A DNA stretch of 64,000 nucleotides from NCBI GenBank assembly GCA_020723305.1, contig DYJC01000002.1, positions 248,001-312,000 on the forward strand, written 5' to 3'. The position numbers and the translations under genes were made by a program. Of the stretch, positions 14,597 to 20,171 are shown one piece after another. Below the pieces are notes generated by a model that made no database searches, was not told where the DNA came from, and worked only from the letters and a program-made list of their open reading frames with translations. Source of the DNA: Desulfosudis oleivorans. Its GTDB lineage: Bacteria; Desulfobacterota; Desulfobacteria; Desulfobacterales; SURF-7. Each line of letters starts with the position of its first letter. Position 1 is the stretch's first letter.

Positions 14597-14626
14597 TTGA
14601 CACGATTTGAAAGCATATTGTATTTA
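14597..14626 (+). promoter_or_regulatory. Candidate promoter of the AmmeMemoRadiSam operon
   Basis: A perfect TTGACA at 14597-14602, followed after 18 bases by TATTTA. It begins seven bases after the lepA stop and 69 bases before the MEMO start codon. Confidence 0.45.
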
Positions 14627-14665: not shown

Positions 14666-15562
14666 ATGCAATGCTCAATCCGCTTGATTACCATCTCTGC
14701 CTTGATTATTTTTTTACAGTTTTTTTGTTCGGTTTCTGTTGTAAATGCCGTTGAGATTCGAAAGCCGGTATGGGCTGGAAAATTTTATCCGGAGTCCCCG
14801 GCAGAACTCATGGAAACCATAAACAGGCTTTCCCTTGAGGCAGAAAAAACGGTTATTGCGCAACCGACGGGCAGAAAGCTCAAGGCCGTTGTCATGCCTC
14901 ATGCCGGCTATGTTTATTCCGGCTGGACAGCTGCCCATGCCTGTGTCATATTAAAAGGCAAACAGTTTAAACGGGTGATTCTCATGGGGCCGGATCACCG
15001 GATCGGTTTTTCAAATGCGGCGATCAGTGCGGTGGATGAATATCAAACTCCCTTGGGGATTGTATCCCTGCACGAAGATGCTGCAAAATTGAGGGCCGGA
15101 TCAGCTCTCTTTCAAGCAGTGCCTGCTTCCGATCAACTGGAACACTGCCTGGAGGTGGTGCTTCCGTTTTTACAATATTCATTGAAAAAATTTTCATTTG
15201 TACCCGTGGTCATGGGAGGCAGGGGGGATTTTCAAAAGATCGGAAGTCATATTGAGGATTTGCTGGATAATGAAACCCTTATTGTGGTGAGTTCTGATTT
15301 ATCGCATTATCTTCCTTACAATCAGGCCAAAATAAGAGATAAAGAAACCATCAACATGATTCTCAATCTGGAAGATGAAAAGCTGCTGGTTCGTGAGAAT
15401 GCAGCTTGTGGTGTGATCCCTATATGCAGCGTGATCCGTTTTGCAAATCGATTCAACTGGAAGCCGGAACTGATCCATTATTCAAACAGCGGAGATACGT
15501 CCGGGGAAAAGGAAAGGGTTGTTGGTTACGCTGCAATTGCTTTTTATGGAGATAATTTATGA
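14666..15562 (+). CDS. amrB: AmmeMemoRadiSam system protein B (MEMO1 family), with signal peptide
   Basis: A 298-residue MEMO1-family protein. Family core: VVMPHAGYVYSGWTAAHA, VILMGPDHRIGF, SSDLSHYLPYNQA and ENAACGVIPICSVI, which carry the conserved His, His and Cys that form the metal/active site in MEMO1 relatives of class III extradiol dioxygenases. The N terminus is MQCSIRLITISALIIFLQFF then SVSVVNA before VEIRKP: a good Sec signal peptide with an A-x-A-like site, so the protein is probably exported. The upstream TTG frame is the promoter region and is not used. Its stop overlaps the next start by four bases. Biochemical role of the bacterial protein is unknown. Confidence 0.92.
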   Translation: MQCSIRLITISALIIFLQFFCSVSVVNAVEIRKPVWAGKFYPESPAELMETINRLSLEAEKTVIAQPTGRKLKAVVMPHAGYVYSGWTAAHACVILKGKQFKRVILMGPDHRIGFSNAAISAVDEYQTPLGIVSLHEDAAKLRAGSALFQAVPASDQLEHCLEVVLPFLQYSLKKFSFVPVVMGGRGDFQKIGSHIEDLLDNETLIVVSSDLSHYLPYNQAKIRDKETINMILNLEDEKLLVRENAACGVIPICSVIRFANRFNWKPELIHYSNSGDTSGEKERVVGYAAIAFYGDNL

Positions 15563-16155
15563 AGAAAACGAAAAGTTCAAAACATCTGACTCAAAAGCAG
15601 GGGCATGCCCTTGTTTCTTTTGCAAGACACTCGATTCAGGAGAGAGTGAGACGAAGCACGGAACTCGATGAAGCTGTTTTAGAGATATTAAAAGATCAAC
15701 GGTTACAGGAAAAACACTGCACATTCGTTACGTTGCATCTGGATGGTCAGCTAAGGGGGTGTATCGGGACACTTTCCGCAACAGAATCGATTGTCGAGGG
15801 TGTAAAGAGGAATGCACTCAATGCTGCTTTGCATGATCACCGGTTTTCTCCTGTGAAACCGGAAGAGCTGGATTCGATTGCCATTGAAGTCAGCGTATTG
15901 ACAGATCCAACTCCGGTTGAATATGCGGATGGCGCTGATCTGCTCACAAAATTGAATCCCGGGGTGGATGGTGTGATTATCCGTCAAGGAGCGGCCCGAG
16001 CAACGTTTCTGCCTCAGGTCTGGGATCAGTTGTCCGGACCGGAAGAGTTTTTAACCCATCTGTGTTTAAAAGCCGGTCTTGCAGGAGATGCCTGGCAAAC
16101 TTCAAAGGTTGAGGTATTGATCTATCAGGTTCAATATTTTGAAGAAAAAAAATGA
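15559..16155 (+). CDS. amrA: AmmeMemoRadiSam system protein A (AMMECR1 family)
   Basis: A 198-residue AMMECR1-domain protein. The hallmark LRGCIGTL motif lies at residues ~60-67 (in LDGQLRGCIGTLSATESIVE), followed by NALNAALHDHRFSPVKPEELDSIAIEVSVL and GVDGVIIRQGAARATFLPQVW. The start overlaps the MEMO stop (ATGA) and its own end overlaps the next gene by 17 bases, so the genes are translationally coupled. No signal peptide is seen, so this partner should be cytoplasmic, unlike MEMO. The molecular function of AMMECR1 proteins is not established. Confidence 0.93.
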   Translation: MKKTKSSKHLTQKQGHALVSFARHSIQERVRRSTELDEAVLEILKDQRLQEKHCTFVTLHLDGQLRGCIGTLSATESIVEGVKRNALNAALHDHRFSPVKPEELDSIAIEVSVLTDPTPVEYADGADLLTKLNPGVDGVIIRQGAARATFLPQVWDQLSGPEEFLTHLCLKAGLAGDAWQTSKVEVLIYQVQYFEEKK

Positions 16156-18241
16156 AAAACAGGTTATCAGGGTAGTCATTGCTACCGGTGTTTCTTCCGT
16201 AGTCACGCAGCTTTATATTATTCGGGAATTTCTGGTTCAGTATACGGGCAATGAGTTTGTCATTGCCCTTATTCTTTTCAACTGGCTGGTGATCGGTGGC
16301 TTTGGGACACTTCTGGCCCGGTTCATCACGCCACGTTTTGGTAAGGCAACAGCCCTCCGGCTCGGCGTCCTGTCTCTGTGTCTGTCCGGCTTGTCTCCCA
16401 TAACCATACTCGGTATCCGGTTTCTCAGGGATTTTTTTTTCATCCATGGCGCATCAGTCGGATTCTATCCCACCTTCTGGTATATCTTTTTGCTCATCAC
16501 CCCATATGGTCTTCTGCTGGGATTTGTTTTGCCCTATAGTCTTTATGTGCTGCGTTGTGATCAGGAGGATTATCCACCGTCACGAATTTATATTGCCGAT
16601 AATCTGGGGGATGTTGCCGGAGGGGCATTATTTTCATTTCTGCTGGTTTATCTGCTCACTCCGGTGCAGGCCATCTGTATCGCCGGACTGCCGATTATTT
16701 TGACTGTGGCTCCATTTTTCAGAGAAAATTTCAGAAAGGGGAGCCTTTATGGTTTGATTGCCAGCGGGGTGCTGGCGATTCTTATCGGAAGCGTTTTTCT
16801 GGAATCCGGCTCCCTGAAACCCCGTATCGGAGACCTGGTACACTATAGCGAATCCAGATATGGACGTATCGAGGTTCATCAGGACGAGGGTCTGATTACG
16901 CTTTTTTCAGATGGTGTCCCGGTGTTTAATAATCAGAATGAAACAACAGCCGAAGAGGTGATTCATTATCCCCTGTCTCAAGCTGAAAATCCTCAACATG
17001 TTCTGATGATCTCGGCTACCGGCGGCATGATCAGGGAACTGAAAAAGTACAATCCAGCCTCAATCGATTATGTGGAGCTGGATCCGGAGGTTTCTGCTGT
17101 TTTATTCCGGTATAAACTGCTTGAACCGACACGCGGCCTTTCCGTCATTAACGAAGATGGAAGAGCGTATCTGATGAAAACCCGAAAGAAATATGATGCA
17201 ATTATTGTGAATCTTCCGGAACCGGATACCTTTCAGATCAACCGGTTTTACACAAACCGTTTTTTCGAACTGGCAAAAGCCAGGTTGGCTCCTCATGGTG
17301 TTTTCAGTTTTTCCATGGACGGATATGACAATTACCTGGCTGAACCGCAACGGCAGAAGCTGTCTTCATTGTTCAACACGGTTTCAGACCATTTCAAGGA
17401 GGTGCTGCTGCTGCCCGGACAGAAGATCATTTTTATCTGCATGGATTCGAAGATTCACCGGGACATCCCATCTCTTCTGGAGTTAAAAGGAATATCAACC
17501 GATTATATCAGCCGGTATTTTTATGGCAATGTCACCTCTTTTCGAACAGATCAGTTGAACCGGTTGATGGATCCGAAAACGGAAATCAATTACGACCATT
17601 CGCCAAGGCTGATGCGTCTCATGTTTACCCAATGGTTTGCAAAATTTTCCACATCTCCGTTGTGGTTTCTGGGTAGTATCGTCCTGGTTCTTGTCATCTA
17701 CCTGTCCCGGCTGCATGTTGAAGAGTATGTTCTGTTTTCAACCGGTTGTATGACAATGGGGTGTGAGCTGATGATTGTTTTCGCCTTTCAGATCTATTTT
17801 GGGTATATTTATTATCAGATCGGTCTGATCATCACGATTTTTCTGGCAGGATTATTACCCGGGGCATGGATAGGGGAGAAATTGCGCCGGAACGCCGGAA
17901 ACGTTCTGGTCTGGACAGACATCCTGCTCATCGGTCTGATGCTTGTTTTTATTACGTTCTGTTTCCAATGGGGTGACAAACTGCCGGTTCTGTTTTATCT
18001 TTGTACAGGATTTCTGTTTTCGGTTCTTTGTGGCTGTCAGTTCCCGGCGGCTCTGGAACCGCGTAACAATGTCAAAAAATCCGTAGCCGGGGCGTTTTCA
18101 GCCGATCTGATCGGGGCTGCTCTGGGTGCACTGATAACCAGTGTGTTTCTGATCCCTTATTATGGAATCATTGGCGCAGCCATGGGATTGATCCTGCTGA
18201 AAATGATCAGCCTGATCATGGTGGGAAGAAAACATGGATAA
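16139..18241 (+). CDS. Polytopic membrane protein with spermidine-synthase-like domain
   Basis: A 700-residue protein in three parts: about seven hydrophobic helices (residues ~8-225), a soluble Rossmann domain (~230-500), and about six C-terminal helices (~505-695). The soluble part is spermidine-synthase-like: ESRYGRIEVHQDEGLITLFSDG, HVLMISATGGMIRELKKY in place of the usual G-G-G-D-G loop, DYVELDPEVSAVLFRY, NEDGRAYL and YDAIIVNLPEPDTFQINRFY. Canonical G-D/G-E loop residues are altered, so polyamine synthesis is uncertain. The start is TTG, as no ATG or GTG fits. It overlaps both neighbours (17 and 8 bases). This membrane family recurs beside AmmeMemoRadiSam genes; its role is unknown. Confidence 0.82.
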   Translation: MKKKNEKQVIRVVIATGVSSVVTQLYIIREFLVQYTGNEFVIALILFNWLVIGGFGTLLARFITPRFGKATALRLGVLSLCLSGLSPITILGIRFLRDFFFIHGASVGFYPTFWYIFLLITPYGLLLGFVLPYSLYVLRCDQEDYPPSRIYIADNLGDVAGGALFSFLLVYLLTPVQAICIAGLPIILTVAPFFRENFRKGSLYGLIASGVLAILIGSVFLESGSLKPRIGDLVHYSESRYGRIEVHQDEGLITLFSDGVPVFNNQNETTAEEVIHYPLSQAENPQHVLMISATGGMIRELKKYNPASIDYVELDPEVSAVLFRYKLLEPTRGLSVINEDGRAYLMKTRKKYDAIIVNLPEPDTFQINRFYTNRFFELAKARLAPHGVFSFSMDGYDNYLAEPQRQKLSSLFNTVSDHFKEVLLLPGQKIIFICMDSKIHRDIPSLLELKGISTDYISRYFYGNVTSFRTDQLNRLMDPKTEINYDHSPRLMRLMFTQWFAKFSTSPLWFLGSIVLVLVIYLSRLHVEEYVLFSTGCMTMGCELMIVFAFQIYFGYIYYQIGLIITIFLAGLLPGAWIGEKLRRNAGNVLVWTDILLIGLMLVFITFCFQWGDKLPVLFYLCTGFLFSVLCGCQFPAALEPRNNVKKSVAGAFSADLIGAALGALITSVFLIPYYGIIGAAMGLILLKMISLIMVGRKHG

Positions 18242-19412
18242 TATGAATCGACGAAAATTTTTATATTCCGGGGCTTTATTTTGTTGCAGCACCATACCGG
18301 ATTGGGGTTCTTTCCCATTTTTAGATGGAGATGCGATAGCTTCTGTTTCCGATATCCGTGGAGAGGTGTTCAAGGGAGATGCTCCGGAAACCATATGGAA
18401 ATGGTCATGCGAAGGCCGGTATTATGCAAAAATACTGGATAACAAGACCGTTTGCCAGTTATGTCCTAACAAGTGTGTATTATCACCGGGGGATCGAAGC
18501 ATCTGCAGGGTGCGGGTCAATTCCAAGGGAAAGCTGTACAGCCTGGTTTATGGAAATCCCTGTGCGGTGAATGTCGATCCCATTGAAAAAAAGCCGTTGT
18601 ATCATTATAAACCCGGAACCCCTGCATTTTCCATTGCAACAACCGGGTGTAATTTCCGATGTCTGAACTGCCAGAACTGGGAGATCTCTCAGGCCAAACC
18701 CCATGAAGTCAGGTATGTCGAGTTATTTCCGAAACAGGTGGTACAGGAAGCTCTATCTTCCAGATCCTTATCCATTGCATACACCTATTCGGAAGCTACC
18801 GTATTTTATGAGTATATGATGGATACAGCCCGGCTGGCAAAGGAAAGCGGGCTGTCCAATCTCTGGATTTCCAATGGGTATATGAACCCTGAACCGCTCC
18901 GGGAGCTTTGTGAGGTATTGGGGGCAGCCAATGTGAATCTGAAGGCATTCAGCGATGAGATTTACAAAAAGCTGAATGGCGGCCTGCTGGAACCGGTGTT
19001 GAACACATTCAAGACCCTTCATGATCATAATGTCCATTTTGAAATGACCCATCTGGTTGTACCGGGATATGTGGATGATGATGATATGGTCAAAAGAATG
19101 TGCGGCTGGATTCTTGAGAATCTGGGGCCGGATTATCCTCTCCATTTTTCTCGATTCACCCCCAAATACAAGCTGGACCGGCTTCCCCCCACTCCGGTGT
19201 CTACGATAACGCGGTTTCGAAATCTGGCCATGAAAGAAGGCATCCATTATGTTTATGTAGGGAATATTTCGAACCATGAGGGAAATCATACGTTCTGCCA
19301 TGGGTGCGGCAAGATGCTGATCGAGCGCAAAGGCTTTTTTATCAACAAGGATGGACTGGATGGAGAACATTGCCGGTATTGCAAAATCAGGATTCCGGGT
19401 GTCTGGATCTAG
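18234..19412 (+). CDS. amrS: AmmeMemoRadiSam system radical SAM enzyme, Tat-like N terminus
   Basis: A 392-residue radical SAM protein of the PflA-like COG1180 type. The cluster motif is GCNFRCLNCQNWE (C-x3-C-x2-C, residues ~139-146). Before it lies CQLCPNKCVLSPGDRSICRV and, at the C terminus, CHGCGK and CRYCKIR, which look like extra metal sites. The N terminus, MNRRKFLYSGALFCCSTI, has the twin-arginine pattern R-R-x-F-L followed by a short hydrophobic stretch, so Tat export or membrane tethering is possible, though unusual for a radical SAM enzyme. The start overlaps the previous stop by 8 bases; ATG at 18243 is an alternative. It is the last gene of the operon. Confidence 0.9.
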   Translation: MDNMNRRKFLYSGALFCCSTIPDWGSFPFLDGDAIASVSDIRGEVFKGDAPETIWKWSCEGRYYAKILDNKTVCQLCPNKCVLSPGDRSICRVRVNSKGKLYSLVYGNPCAVNVDPIEKKPLYHYKPGTPAFSIATTGCNFRCLNCQNWEISQAKPHEVRYVELFPKQVVQEALSSRSLSIAYTYSEATVFYEYMMDTARLAKESGLSNLWISNGYMNPEPLRELCEVLGAANVNLKAFSDEIYKKLNGGLLEPVLNTFKTLHDHNVHFEMTHLVVPGYVDDDDMVKRMCGWILENLGPDYPLHFSRFTPKYKLDRLPPTPVSTITRFRNLAMKEGIHYVYVGNISNHEGNHTFCHGCGKMLIERKGFFINKDGLDGEHCRYCKIRIPGVWI

Positions 19413-19421
19413 CGGTTATTT

Positions 19422-20171
19422 TTATTTCCGGTTGATGGTTGAAGCCATATAGCCGGCGCCAAATCCATTATCAATGTTGACTACCGCCACATTGGAACTG
19501 CAACTGTTCAGCATGCCGAGGAGTGCAGTCACACCGCCAAAGCTCGCCCCATAACCAATACTGGTCGGAACCGCAATTACCGGTCTCTCCACCAGACCGG
19601 CAACCACGCTGGGAAGAGCGCCTTCCATCCCGGCGACCACAATCAAGACAGCGGCGTTATTTATTTTTTCATGATAATGAAACAGCCGGTGAATGCCGGC
19701 CACACCAACATCAAATATGGATTCAACCGCATTTCCCATATATCTTGCTGTGAGCAAAGCTTCTTTTGCAACCGGGATATCGGATGTGCCGGCGGACAGC
19801 ACCAGGATGGTTCCTCTCCCGGTTATAACAGGATCGGTTTTTGCGTGGATAATCATCCGGGCATCATCATGGTAGGTGCAATCCGGAAGGTGCGGAAGAA
19901 TTTTTTCCGCTTTTTCCGCTTCCACTCTAGTCACCAGAATGATTTTTTCATGGGCGATCATCTTTTCCAGGATTCCGATAATCTGACCGGCTGTTTTTCC
20001 CTGGCCAAAGATCACCTCCGGAAATCCCTTGCGCATGGATCGATGATGGTCTATATGTGCAAAATTGATATCCTGAAATGCAATGTGTCTGAGATTATCC
20101 AGTGCCTGATCAACAGGACTTTTGCCGTTGGCAACCTGTTCCAGAAGCTGTTTTAAGGAGTCAATGTTCAT
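19422..20171 (-). CDS. larB: LarB, pyridinium-3,5-biscarboxylic acid mononucleotide synthase
   Basis: A 249-residue protein of the LarB/PurE-related family, which carboxylates and hydrolyses nicotinate adenine dinucleotide to start synthesis of the nickel-pincer nucleotide cofactor. Seen: DHHRSMRKGFPEVIFGQGKT, VLSAGTSDIPVAKEAL, DVGVAGIHRLF, VVAGMEGALPSVVAGLV, VIAVPTSIGYGASFGGVTAL and VNIDNGFGAGYMA. These are the diagnostic motifs and the length is usual. larC and larE are not in the window. It is convergent with the radical SAM gene (9-base gap) and divergent from kdsB. Confidence 0.93.
   Translation of the reverse strand: MNIDSLKQLLEQVANGKSPVDQALDNLRHIAFQDINFAHIDHHRSMRKGFPEVIFGQGKTAGQIIGILEKMIAHEKIILVTRVEAEKAEKILPHLPDCTYHDDARMIIHAKTDPVITGRGTILVLSAGTSDIPVAKEALLTARYMGNAVESIFDVGVAGIHRLFHYHEKINNAAVLIVVAGMEGALPSVVAGLVERPVIAVPTSIGYGASFGGVTALLGMLNSCSSNVAVVNIDNGFGAGYMASTINRK

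Follow-up and report, generated by a model that had tools for sequence, protein, structure and literature searches.

A predicted envelope form of the AmmeMemoRadiSam system with a carrier-like membrane protein in Desulfosudis oleivorans and its relatives

The AmmeMemoRadiSam system brings together three proteins, namely AMMECR1, MEMO and a radical S-adenosylmethionine (SAM) enzyme. MEMO and AMMECR1 are also found in humans, and a settled biochemical function is lacking for them. SAM enzymes are generally assumed to be located in the cytoplasm, where SAM is made. Memo-Ammecr1 systems, including the context shared by MEMO, AMMECR1 and radical SAM proteins, were reportedly described by Burroughs et al. 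in 2019 (J Biol Chem). A passage of PMC7159879 cites Burroughs et al. 2019 for these Memo-Ammecr1 systems, and a passage of PMC12724379 on a prophage insertion site mentions AmmeMemoRadiSam. In the open literature, none of the titles or opening parts of abstracts addressed AmmeMemoRadiSam function, and nothing relevant was found on exported or periplasmic radical SAM enzymes, most subscription journals lying outside its scope. The passage of PMC10924467 matching radical SAM, twin-arginine and periplasm was not relevant, and a search of the open literature for a fused major facilitator superfamily (MFS) and spermidine synthase protein gave no match. Here, we describe a four-gene AmmeMemoRadiSam operon located in a 64,000-nucleotide stretch (the window; G000:C45:248001-312000) of the 5.4 Mb draft genome of Desulfosudis oleivorans. 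It encodes MEMO and a radical SAM enzyme (rSAM), both with predicted export signals, as well as AMMECR1 and a membrane protein, hereafter M. This exported form with M is apparently unpublished, and an earlier mention may exist.

The four open reading frames (ORFs), all on the + strand, occupy positions 14666-19412 and overlap successively by 4, 17 and 8 bases, exactly as the initial annotation had described. MEMO, AMMECR1 and rSAM all exceeded the curated NCBIfam cut-offs within the same neighbourhood, which makes this locus a member of the AmmeMemoRadiSam system. Export of rSAM and MEMO is well supported in silico, and the envelope-spanning system first proposed on the strength of their signals is itself supported by N-termini conserved among relatives. 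Chance ORF starts or an annotation artefact were ruled out, as the signals are conserved among relatives and the gene set recurs across the order and beyond.

To describe the occurrence of this cassette, we used a class sample of 291 genomes, every one from the order of the window. Matches to TIGR04337, the rSAM family, were found in 284 of these genomes (above the cut-off in 269), and matches to M in 176 (E up to 1e-10, with partial and distant matches counted); one genome scored as M-negative, G005, nevertheless gave a weak match to the M profile (1.9e-24). Among 247 genomes drawn from the phylum, 160 had M profile matches (E up to 1e-20, partial matches counted). From the class we took 77 M-centred loci and 63 rSAM-centred loci (60 representing about every second listed TIGR04337 row, plus three from the same list). 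A full or partial rSAM of the TIGR04337 family (family rSAM) was present in 59 of the M-centred loci, a second radical SAM family, R2, in seven, and neither in 11. A single ORF encoded both MEMO and AMMECR1 in the majority of the M-centred loci. Outside the class sample, 40 loci with a full-length M comprised 21 with a Tat-like (twin-arginine translocation) family rSAM, six of these with RK in place of RR, three with a Tat-like R2, three with a non-Tat copy only, and 13 with none. M is therefore a regular partner across the order and beyond, which answers the check on its conservation proposed in the initial annotation. Its closest named relatives among the matches listed (80 named loci, which served for identities) belong to Desulfobacterales, with 90% identity in a metagenome-assembled genome of Desulfocicer vacuolatum DSM 3385 (L210) and, among the same matches, 91% identity across residues 177-700 in a Desulfobacterium sp. 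(L204). The TIGR04337 enzymes sampled by score (L140-L202) were mostly solitary, with a MEMO homologue nearby in just three of the 63 rSAM-centred loci (L143, L144 and L155).

The N-terminus of rSAM, MDNMNRRKFLYSGALF, carries the motif NRRKFL before a hydrophobic stretch, and RRxF was retained among M-linked relatives, in agreement with its first description as close to a twin-arginine signal. Tat-like starts were scored by a home-made rule (RR or RK, any residue, a hydrophobic residue, then an uncharged hydrophobic stretch), and the count was limited to family rSAMs above 400 bits. By script, 79 of the 82 family rSAMs with M in their locus were Tat-like (78 once the false positive L319 is discounted), and 60 of the 64 without M nearby were not. 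Three of the four Tat-like enzymes without M nearby (L155, L187 and L202) come from genomes that hold a full-length M elsewhere; the fourth (L181) is spurious, its likely start lying behind the motif. The exceptions close to M were a garbled ORF start (L124) and three non-Tat copies of the cytosolic type (L314, L317 and L319), encoded on the opposite strand 1.2-1.8 kb from M, in genomes that each hold a Tat-tagged rSAM elsewhere. When searched for orthologues that start downstream of the proposed signals, the same loci yielded orthologues that keep their Sec-like or Tat-like N-termini; family members without M nearby mostly begin just ahead of the conserved domain. In six M-linked loci, L293-L298, which encode a signalled AMMECR1 and lack MEMO within the stretch, rSAM showed TRK or GRK instead of the twin arginine (6 of 6).

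Overall, M and a predicted Tat-tagged rSAM are linked at the level of the genome. Where M did not adjoin a Tat-tagged rSAM (22 genomes), 19 genomes carried one elsewhere (13 of 16, family R; G483, by way of R2; 5 of 6, f70), with KR replacing RR in those of G436 and G369. Of the 115 M-negative genomes, 20 were listed, and 18 of those listed had no Tat-tagged family rSAM; in the remaining two, the rSAM start was lost at a contig end (G010) or a Tat-tagged rSAM was followed by an M fragment (G012). The genome of the window encodes TatC (257 bits, G000:C28; no search for TatA or TatB was made).

These N-termini might instead be uncleaved anchors or regulatory tails, with all soluble parts in the cytoplasm; export is read from sequence alone, and the hydrophobic region of the rSAM signal in the window is weak (GALFCCSTIPDWGSFPFL). 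We consider this very improbable. RRxF[LI] or RKxF[LI] is conserved across many genera and in two radical SAM families, and the MEMO proteins of the same loci bear Sec-type N-termini. Moreover, among the 74 radical SAM matches in the genome of the window, 30 were examined, and 28 of these loci had no Tat match; one more match (L429) was spurious, as it satisfied the regular expression without being signal-like, which left the rSAM of the window as the only one with a convincing Tat signal.

The N-terminus of MEMO is MQCSIRLITISALIIFLQFFCSVSVVNA. Its Sec signal, called clean in the initial annotation, has counterparts among M-linked relatives: of 68 such MEMO ORFs, the script found signal-like starts in 63, and the remaining five were cut at a contig end (L089 and L328), contained a run of N (L132) or were hydrophobic without an ATG (L064 and L103). 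The three MEMO proteins found without M nearby were unsignalled (L143 and L144) or signalled (L155). MEMO resembles human MEMO1 (7kq8, 3bcz); of the His/His/Cys metal site first proposed, the two histidines align with the human protein and the cysteine falls outside that alignment. A second MEMO in the genome (L002, 1477-2331) has no signal, and is flanked by NifU-like and FabF-like genes (3.8 kb stretch, neighbours named by eye).

The structure of M was modelled with AlphaFold2 from 62 sequences (mean pLDDT 90.1, pTM 0.88). According to DSSP, the model consists of seven membrane helices, a mixed domain (about residues 228-490) and six further helices, the last of which is 54 residues long. 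This agrees with the 13 helices first counted, but the last helix could cross the membrane twice, and 14 crossings are favoured; this number, and the MFS-like parity that goes with it, depend on counting the last helix twice (hydropathy peaks at 666 and 678), which is a judgement. With VIA-align, M matched the MFS carriers SV2A, NorA (8ttf), NarK (4u4w) and FLVCR1 (Z 28.1, 27.6, 26.9 and 26.4, respectively), with superpositions of 341-350 residues spanning 1-700 at a root-mean-square deviation (rmsd) of 3.3-3.8. The mixed domain matched the spermidine synthase SpeE (1uir; Z 27.3, rmsd 2.7, 264 residues), which was also ranked first by Foldseek. Family-averaged lysine plus arginine counts were 3.35, 3.43, 2.52, 2.10, 0.97, 3.09, 1.89 and 1.57 in the inside loops, and 1.08, 2.14, 0.26 and 0.73 in the outside loops, two more of which were too short to score. 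This pattern places the termini of M inside and the SpeE domain outside, and the SpeE-like domain is thus predicted to be located in the periplasm.

In spermidine synthases, two acidic residues line the nucleoside pocket and the catalytic Asp belongs to a DxxDP motif. In the alignment with the human enzyme, E313 of M corresponds to the E of EIDEDV and D340 to the D of DGFEF, and these residues were kept in 61 and 62 of the 62 M sequences, respectively, whereas TDSSDP is replaced by NLPEP. The catalytic-Asp column (residue 358) held Asp in 6 of the 62 sequences and Asn, Gly or Cys in 47. The glycine loop is also changed, as the initial annotation had noted for this spermidine-synthase-like domain. 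An invariant N368-R369 pair usually precedes F-[YF]-T, and R29, E30, E39, R94 and D656, in or at the membrane helices, are likewise invariant in the 62 rows. M missed the cut-off of the spermidine synthase family TIGR00417 (57.5 versus 249.55 bits), and its match to NF037959 (43.2 bits, cut-off 40) covers just positions 297-409 of 480 in the profile; the relative in L111 does not reach the NF037959 cut-off (37.5). SpeE activity as the sole function of M was rejected on the profile cut-off and the loss of the catalytic Asp.

M could still be an enzyme rather than a SAM carrier: its periplasmic SpeE-like domain would use a SAM-like nucleoside as group donor for an envelope substrate, and the substrate or product would be moved by the MFS part. 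The conserved nucleoside-site acids, the invariant N368-R369 pair and the fold match at Z 27 would all suit such a role, and the protein of L118 does better than that of the window on the aminopropyltransferase profile NF002956 (193 and 124 bits, cut-off 472). However, all four M proteins tested fell far below the aminopropyltransferase cut-offs, the catalytic-Asp column and the glycine loop are altered as described, and a periplasmic supply of nucleoside would be needed here too. We regard this alternative as unlikely.

The R2 proteins form a second radical SAM family that occurs beside M. Two members gave 24 and 26 bits with TIGR04337, a long way short of its cut-off of 220. R2 proteins adjoining M showed [TS]RR in 10 out of 10 rows of the alignment, including four (L125, L126, L299 and L318) that were missed by the regular expression for Tat signals; two weaker homologues in the same loci (L294 and L299) had no [TS]RR. 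None of the ten R2 loci (L119-L123, L125, L126, L299, L318 and L324) contained MEMO or AMMECR1 in the stretch. When 13 other genomes (7 + 6) were searched with R2, a Tat-tagged copy was found in G483 and G300 only, both of which hold M. Since both Tat-tagged R2 and Tat-tagged family rSAM occur beside M, the exported radical SAM enzymes that keep company with M belong to more than one family. In G300, one Tat-tagged enzyme of each kind, family rSAM and R2, lay side by side and convergent, with no M in the stretch (C75; L432 / L449).

Alternatively, rSAM might carry out its chemistry in the cytoplasm and be exported afterwards, as a product-bound, spent or structural subunit, with M exporting or importing a substrate. 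The Tat pathway carries folded, cofactor-loaded proteins, and neither SAM nor a reductant would then be required in the periplasm. What this scenario leaves unexplained is the pairing of M with two Tat-tagged rSAM families and the outward-facing SAM-type domain, and we judge it decidedly improbable.

The location of AMMECR1 appears more complex. AMMECR1 had been described as lacking a signal, which holds for the window and for at least five relatives in which it is also separate (L063, L064, L081, L084 and L097), but not for most M-linked relatives, where it lies behind a signal. In 53 M-linked loci, one ORF with a leading signal covered both MEMO and AMMECR1, and in L293-L298, which have no MEMO in the stretch, AMMECR1 had a hydrophobic N-terminus of its own (6 loci). 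When AMMECR1 arrangements were counted, the script scored L081 and L095 as signalled and alone, which looks wrong, and L083, L085, L311 and L320 were unclear. In the window, a stop codon separates MEMO from AMMECR1, so that only free AMMECR1 can be read. A programmed frameshift fusing the two was rejected, since visual inspection of 15550-15562 showed no slippery heptamer and the junction varies among relatives.

Apparent paired translation starts, which would give a long signalled form and a free form of AMMECR1, were noted in many relatives (L065-L108 and L293-L298), the corresponding site in the window being 15548-15561. Among 54 fused ORFs, a Shine-Dalgarno-like site preceded 28 of the 37 junction Met codons (two of which, in L088 and L099, are misplaced), compared with 33 of 348 other internal Met codons. 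Where a junction Met was present, the Gly codon after the conserved end of MEMO (FYG or similar) was GGA in 27 of 30 cases and was followed by G, giving GGAG, in 26 of 30; GGA accounts for 23% of Gly codons in the MEMO domain, and the five fused ORFs without a junction Met all used GGC. Likewise, in L293-L298, an in-frame ATG behind a purine-rich site was present just ahead of the AMMECR1 domain (6 of 6, duplex -6.5 to -16.0 kcal/mol). From the junction Met with its Shine-Dalgarno-like site, the GGA bias and this in-frame ATG, selection seems to maintain a free AMMECR1 in addition to the exported form, and relatives may produce the protein on each side of the membrane. One possibility is that it rides out with the Tat-exported rSAM to meet its exported partners.

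Taken together, these data are consistent with an AmmeMemoRadiSam system located in the envelope, where M would provide a periplasmic rSAM with SAM or remove its products, a proposal on which our confidence is evenly balanced. In this proposal, rSAM would be folded, loaded with Fe-S clusters and exported by Tat, and MEMO, as a metal-site protein, would be exported via Sec. M would be an MFS-type carrier of the inner membrane, with its inserted SpeE-like domain facing the periplasm, and would most likely move SAM outward and/or return 5'-deoxyadenosine, methionine or another SAM-derived nucleoside. The periplasmic domain, no longer an aminopropyltransferase, would retain the nucleoside on the outer side of the membrane for use by rSAM, which together with MEMO would then modify some envelope substrate. 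AMMECR1 would act as a partner, its free unsignalled form being kept in most arrangements seen while most M-linked relatives apparently export it too. SAM transport by M, the envelope substrate and the supply of electrons are parts that we infer; transport of SAM or its products is favoured because a carrier bearing an outward SAM-type domain is encoded next to enzymes that would require external SAM. The initial annotation had found a SAM-dependent radical enzyme outside the cytoplasm hard to fit, and M, as a carrier with a periplasm-facing SAM-type domain, offers a possible answer. More tentatively, and with some doubt, M may be a dedicated carrier of SAM or its products that serves two or more families of periplasmic radical SAM enzymes, and the paired signalled and free starts of AMMECR1 would give it a place on either side of the membrane.

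Several observations weigh against this proposal. A periplasmic rSAM would require an electron donor, for which no search was made, and the AMMECR1 of the window is unsignalled. No rSAM was present within the stretch for 11 of the 77 class M loci and 13 of the 40 others, some of which lie at contig ends; M adjoins a non-Tat family copy in six genomes of family f70; and three draft genomes (G203, G460 and G429) hold M with no Tat-tagged rSAM of either family found. On a tree of 142 rSAMs (146 rows minus L124, L181, L319 and L320, the last of which itself has a Tat motif), the Tat label needs just two changes, compared with a mean of 46 after shuffling. The many loci thus represent few independent events, a single origin is possible, and the Fisher value of 4e-32 is inflated because relatives are counted repeatedly. 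Export signals were called from regular expressions, hydropathy and conservation. Finally, MFS folds are generic, and the substrate assigned to M is itself inferential.

Comparison of exported and other rSAMs (61 rows each) also revised the reading of the cysteines. The pairs at both ends of rSAM, first taken as extra, are equally conserved in cytosolic members, the flanking motifs (residues 74, 77, 81 and 91; 355, 358, 380 and 383) being kept in 98-100% of both sets (122 rows), and extra cysteines were rejected as a hallmark of the exported enzyme. C226, C290 and C110 were found in 92%, 87% and 79% of exported rows, respectively, and each in at most 2% of the others. C226 and C290 (codons at 18909-18911 and 19101-19103 of the window), present in 2% and 0% of non-exported rows, may be compatible with a disulphide.

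Around the operon, a perfect TTGACA had been noted; the hexamer is present, but the promoter scan lists no promoter that uses it. A gene for LarB (nickel pincer cofactor synthesis, 301 bits) lies at 19422-20171 on the - strand, convergent with the operon. Beyond MEMO, AMMECR1, M and the radical SAM enzymes, no cluster of neighbours occurred in more than 9 of 78 loci. The features of the locus are listed in Table 1.

Table 1. Coordinates of the features described in the window, with the evidence for each.
Feature	Position	Strand	Evidence
MEMO, AmmeMemoRadiSam system protein B	14666..15562	+	TIGR04336 241 bits (cut-off 26); PF01875 167 bits
AMMECR1, AmmeMemoRadiSam system protein A, unsignalled	15559..16155	+	TIGR04335 201 bits (cut-off 99); 4-base overlap with MEMO
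M, membrane protein of MFS type (TTG start) carrying an inserted spermidine-synthase-like domain	16139..18241	+	PF01564 60 bits; NF037959 43.2 bits (cut-off 40); fold matches
rSAM, AmmeMemoRadiSam system radical SAM enzyme	18234..19412	+	TIGR04337 351.5 bits (cut-off 220)
Predicted 28-aa Sec signal peptide, MEMO (...SVVNA)	14666..14749	+	Sequence; conserved signal-like N-terminus
Predicted twin-arginine signal of rSAM (MDNMNRRKFLYSGALF...)	18234..18344	+	Sequence; conserved in M-linked relatives
Helices 1-7 of M, residues 2-226	16142..16816	+	Model; positive-inside count
Spermidine-synthase-like domain in M, predicted to lie in the periplasm, about residues 228-490	16820..17608	+	Model, charge pattern, fold match
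Membrane helices in the C-terminal part of M, six according to DSSP, residues 507-699	17657..18235	+	Model
CxxxCxxC cluster motif of rSAM, residues 139-146 (Cys 139, 143, 146)	18648..18671	+	Kept in 61/61 exported and 61/61 other rows
GGAG, Shine-Dalgarno-like site before AMMECR1, within MEMO codons GGA GAT	15548..15551	+	GGA over-used at this Gly in start-keeping relatives
TTGACA hexamer upstream of MEMO	14597..14602	+	Sequence; absent from promoter-scan list

If the proposed reading is true, radical SAM chemistry would take place outside the cytoplasm with its own supply of SAM. A widespread cassette that combines a Tat-tagged radical SAM enzyme with a transporter-like protein bearing an outward SAM-type domain would make such extracytoplasmic chemistry directly testable, and it offers a bounded genetic system for finding what MEMO and AMMECR1 do.

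Compared with the cytosolic AmmeMemoRadiSam system (TIGR04335/04336/04337), the locus described here has the same three components above the cut-offs and the same rSAM cysteine motifs, but it differs by the export signals on MEMO and rSAM, by the fourth component M and, often among its relatives, by a MEMO-AMMECR1 fusion with an internal start. Among solved structures, the radical SAM protein closest in sequence to rSAM is pyruvate formate-lyase activating enzyme (3c8f; E 2e-13), which is cytoplasmic and from which rSAM differs by its additional N- and C-terminal cysteine motifs. The SAM transporters of intracellular bacteria and mitochondria are membrane carriers that import SAM and belong to other families than M; to our knowledge, they have neither a SpeE-like domain nor an exported rSAM partner. 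The inserted domain of M shares the fold of SpeE (1uir, 3anx; Z 27), but has a changed glycine loop and catalytic Asp, lies between membrane helices and is predicted to be periplasmic. Finally, the fused MFS/spermidine synthases (NF037959) and the membrane aminopropyltransferases (NF002956) resemble M in combining MFS-like helices with a SpeE domain, whereas M shows a partial profile match, a replaced catalytic Asp and the company of a predicted exported rSAM.

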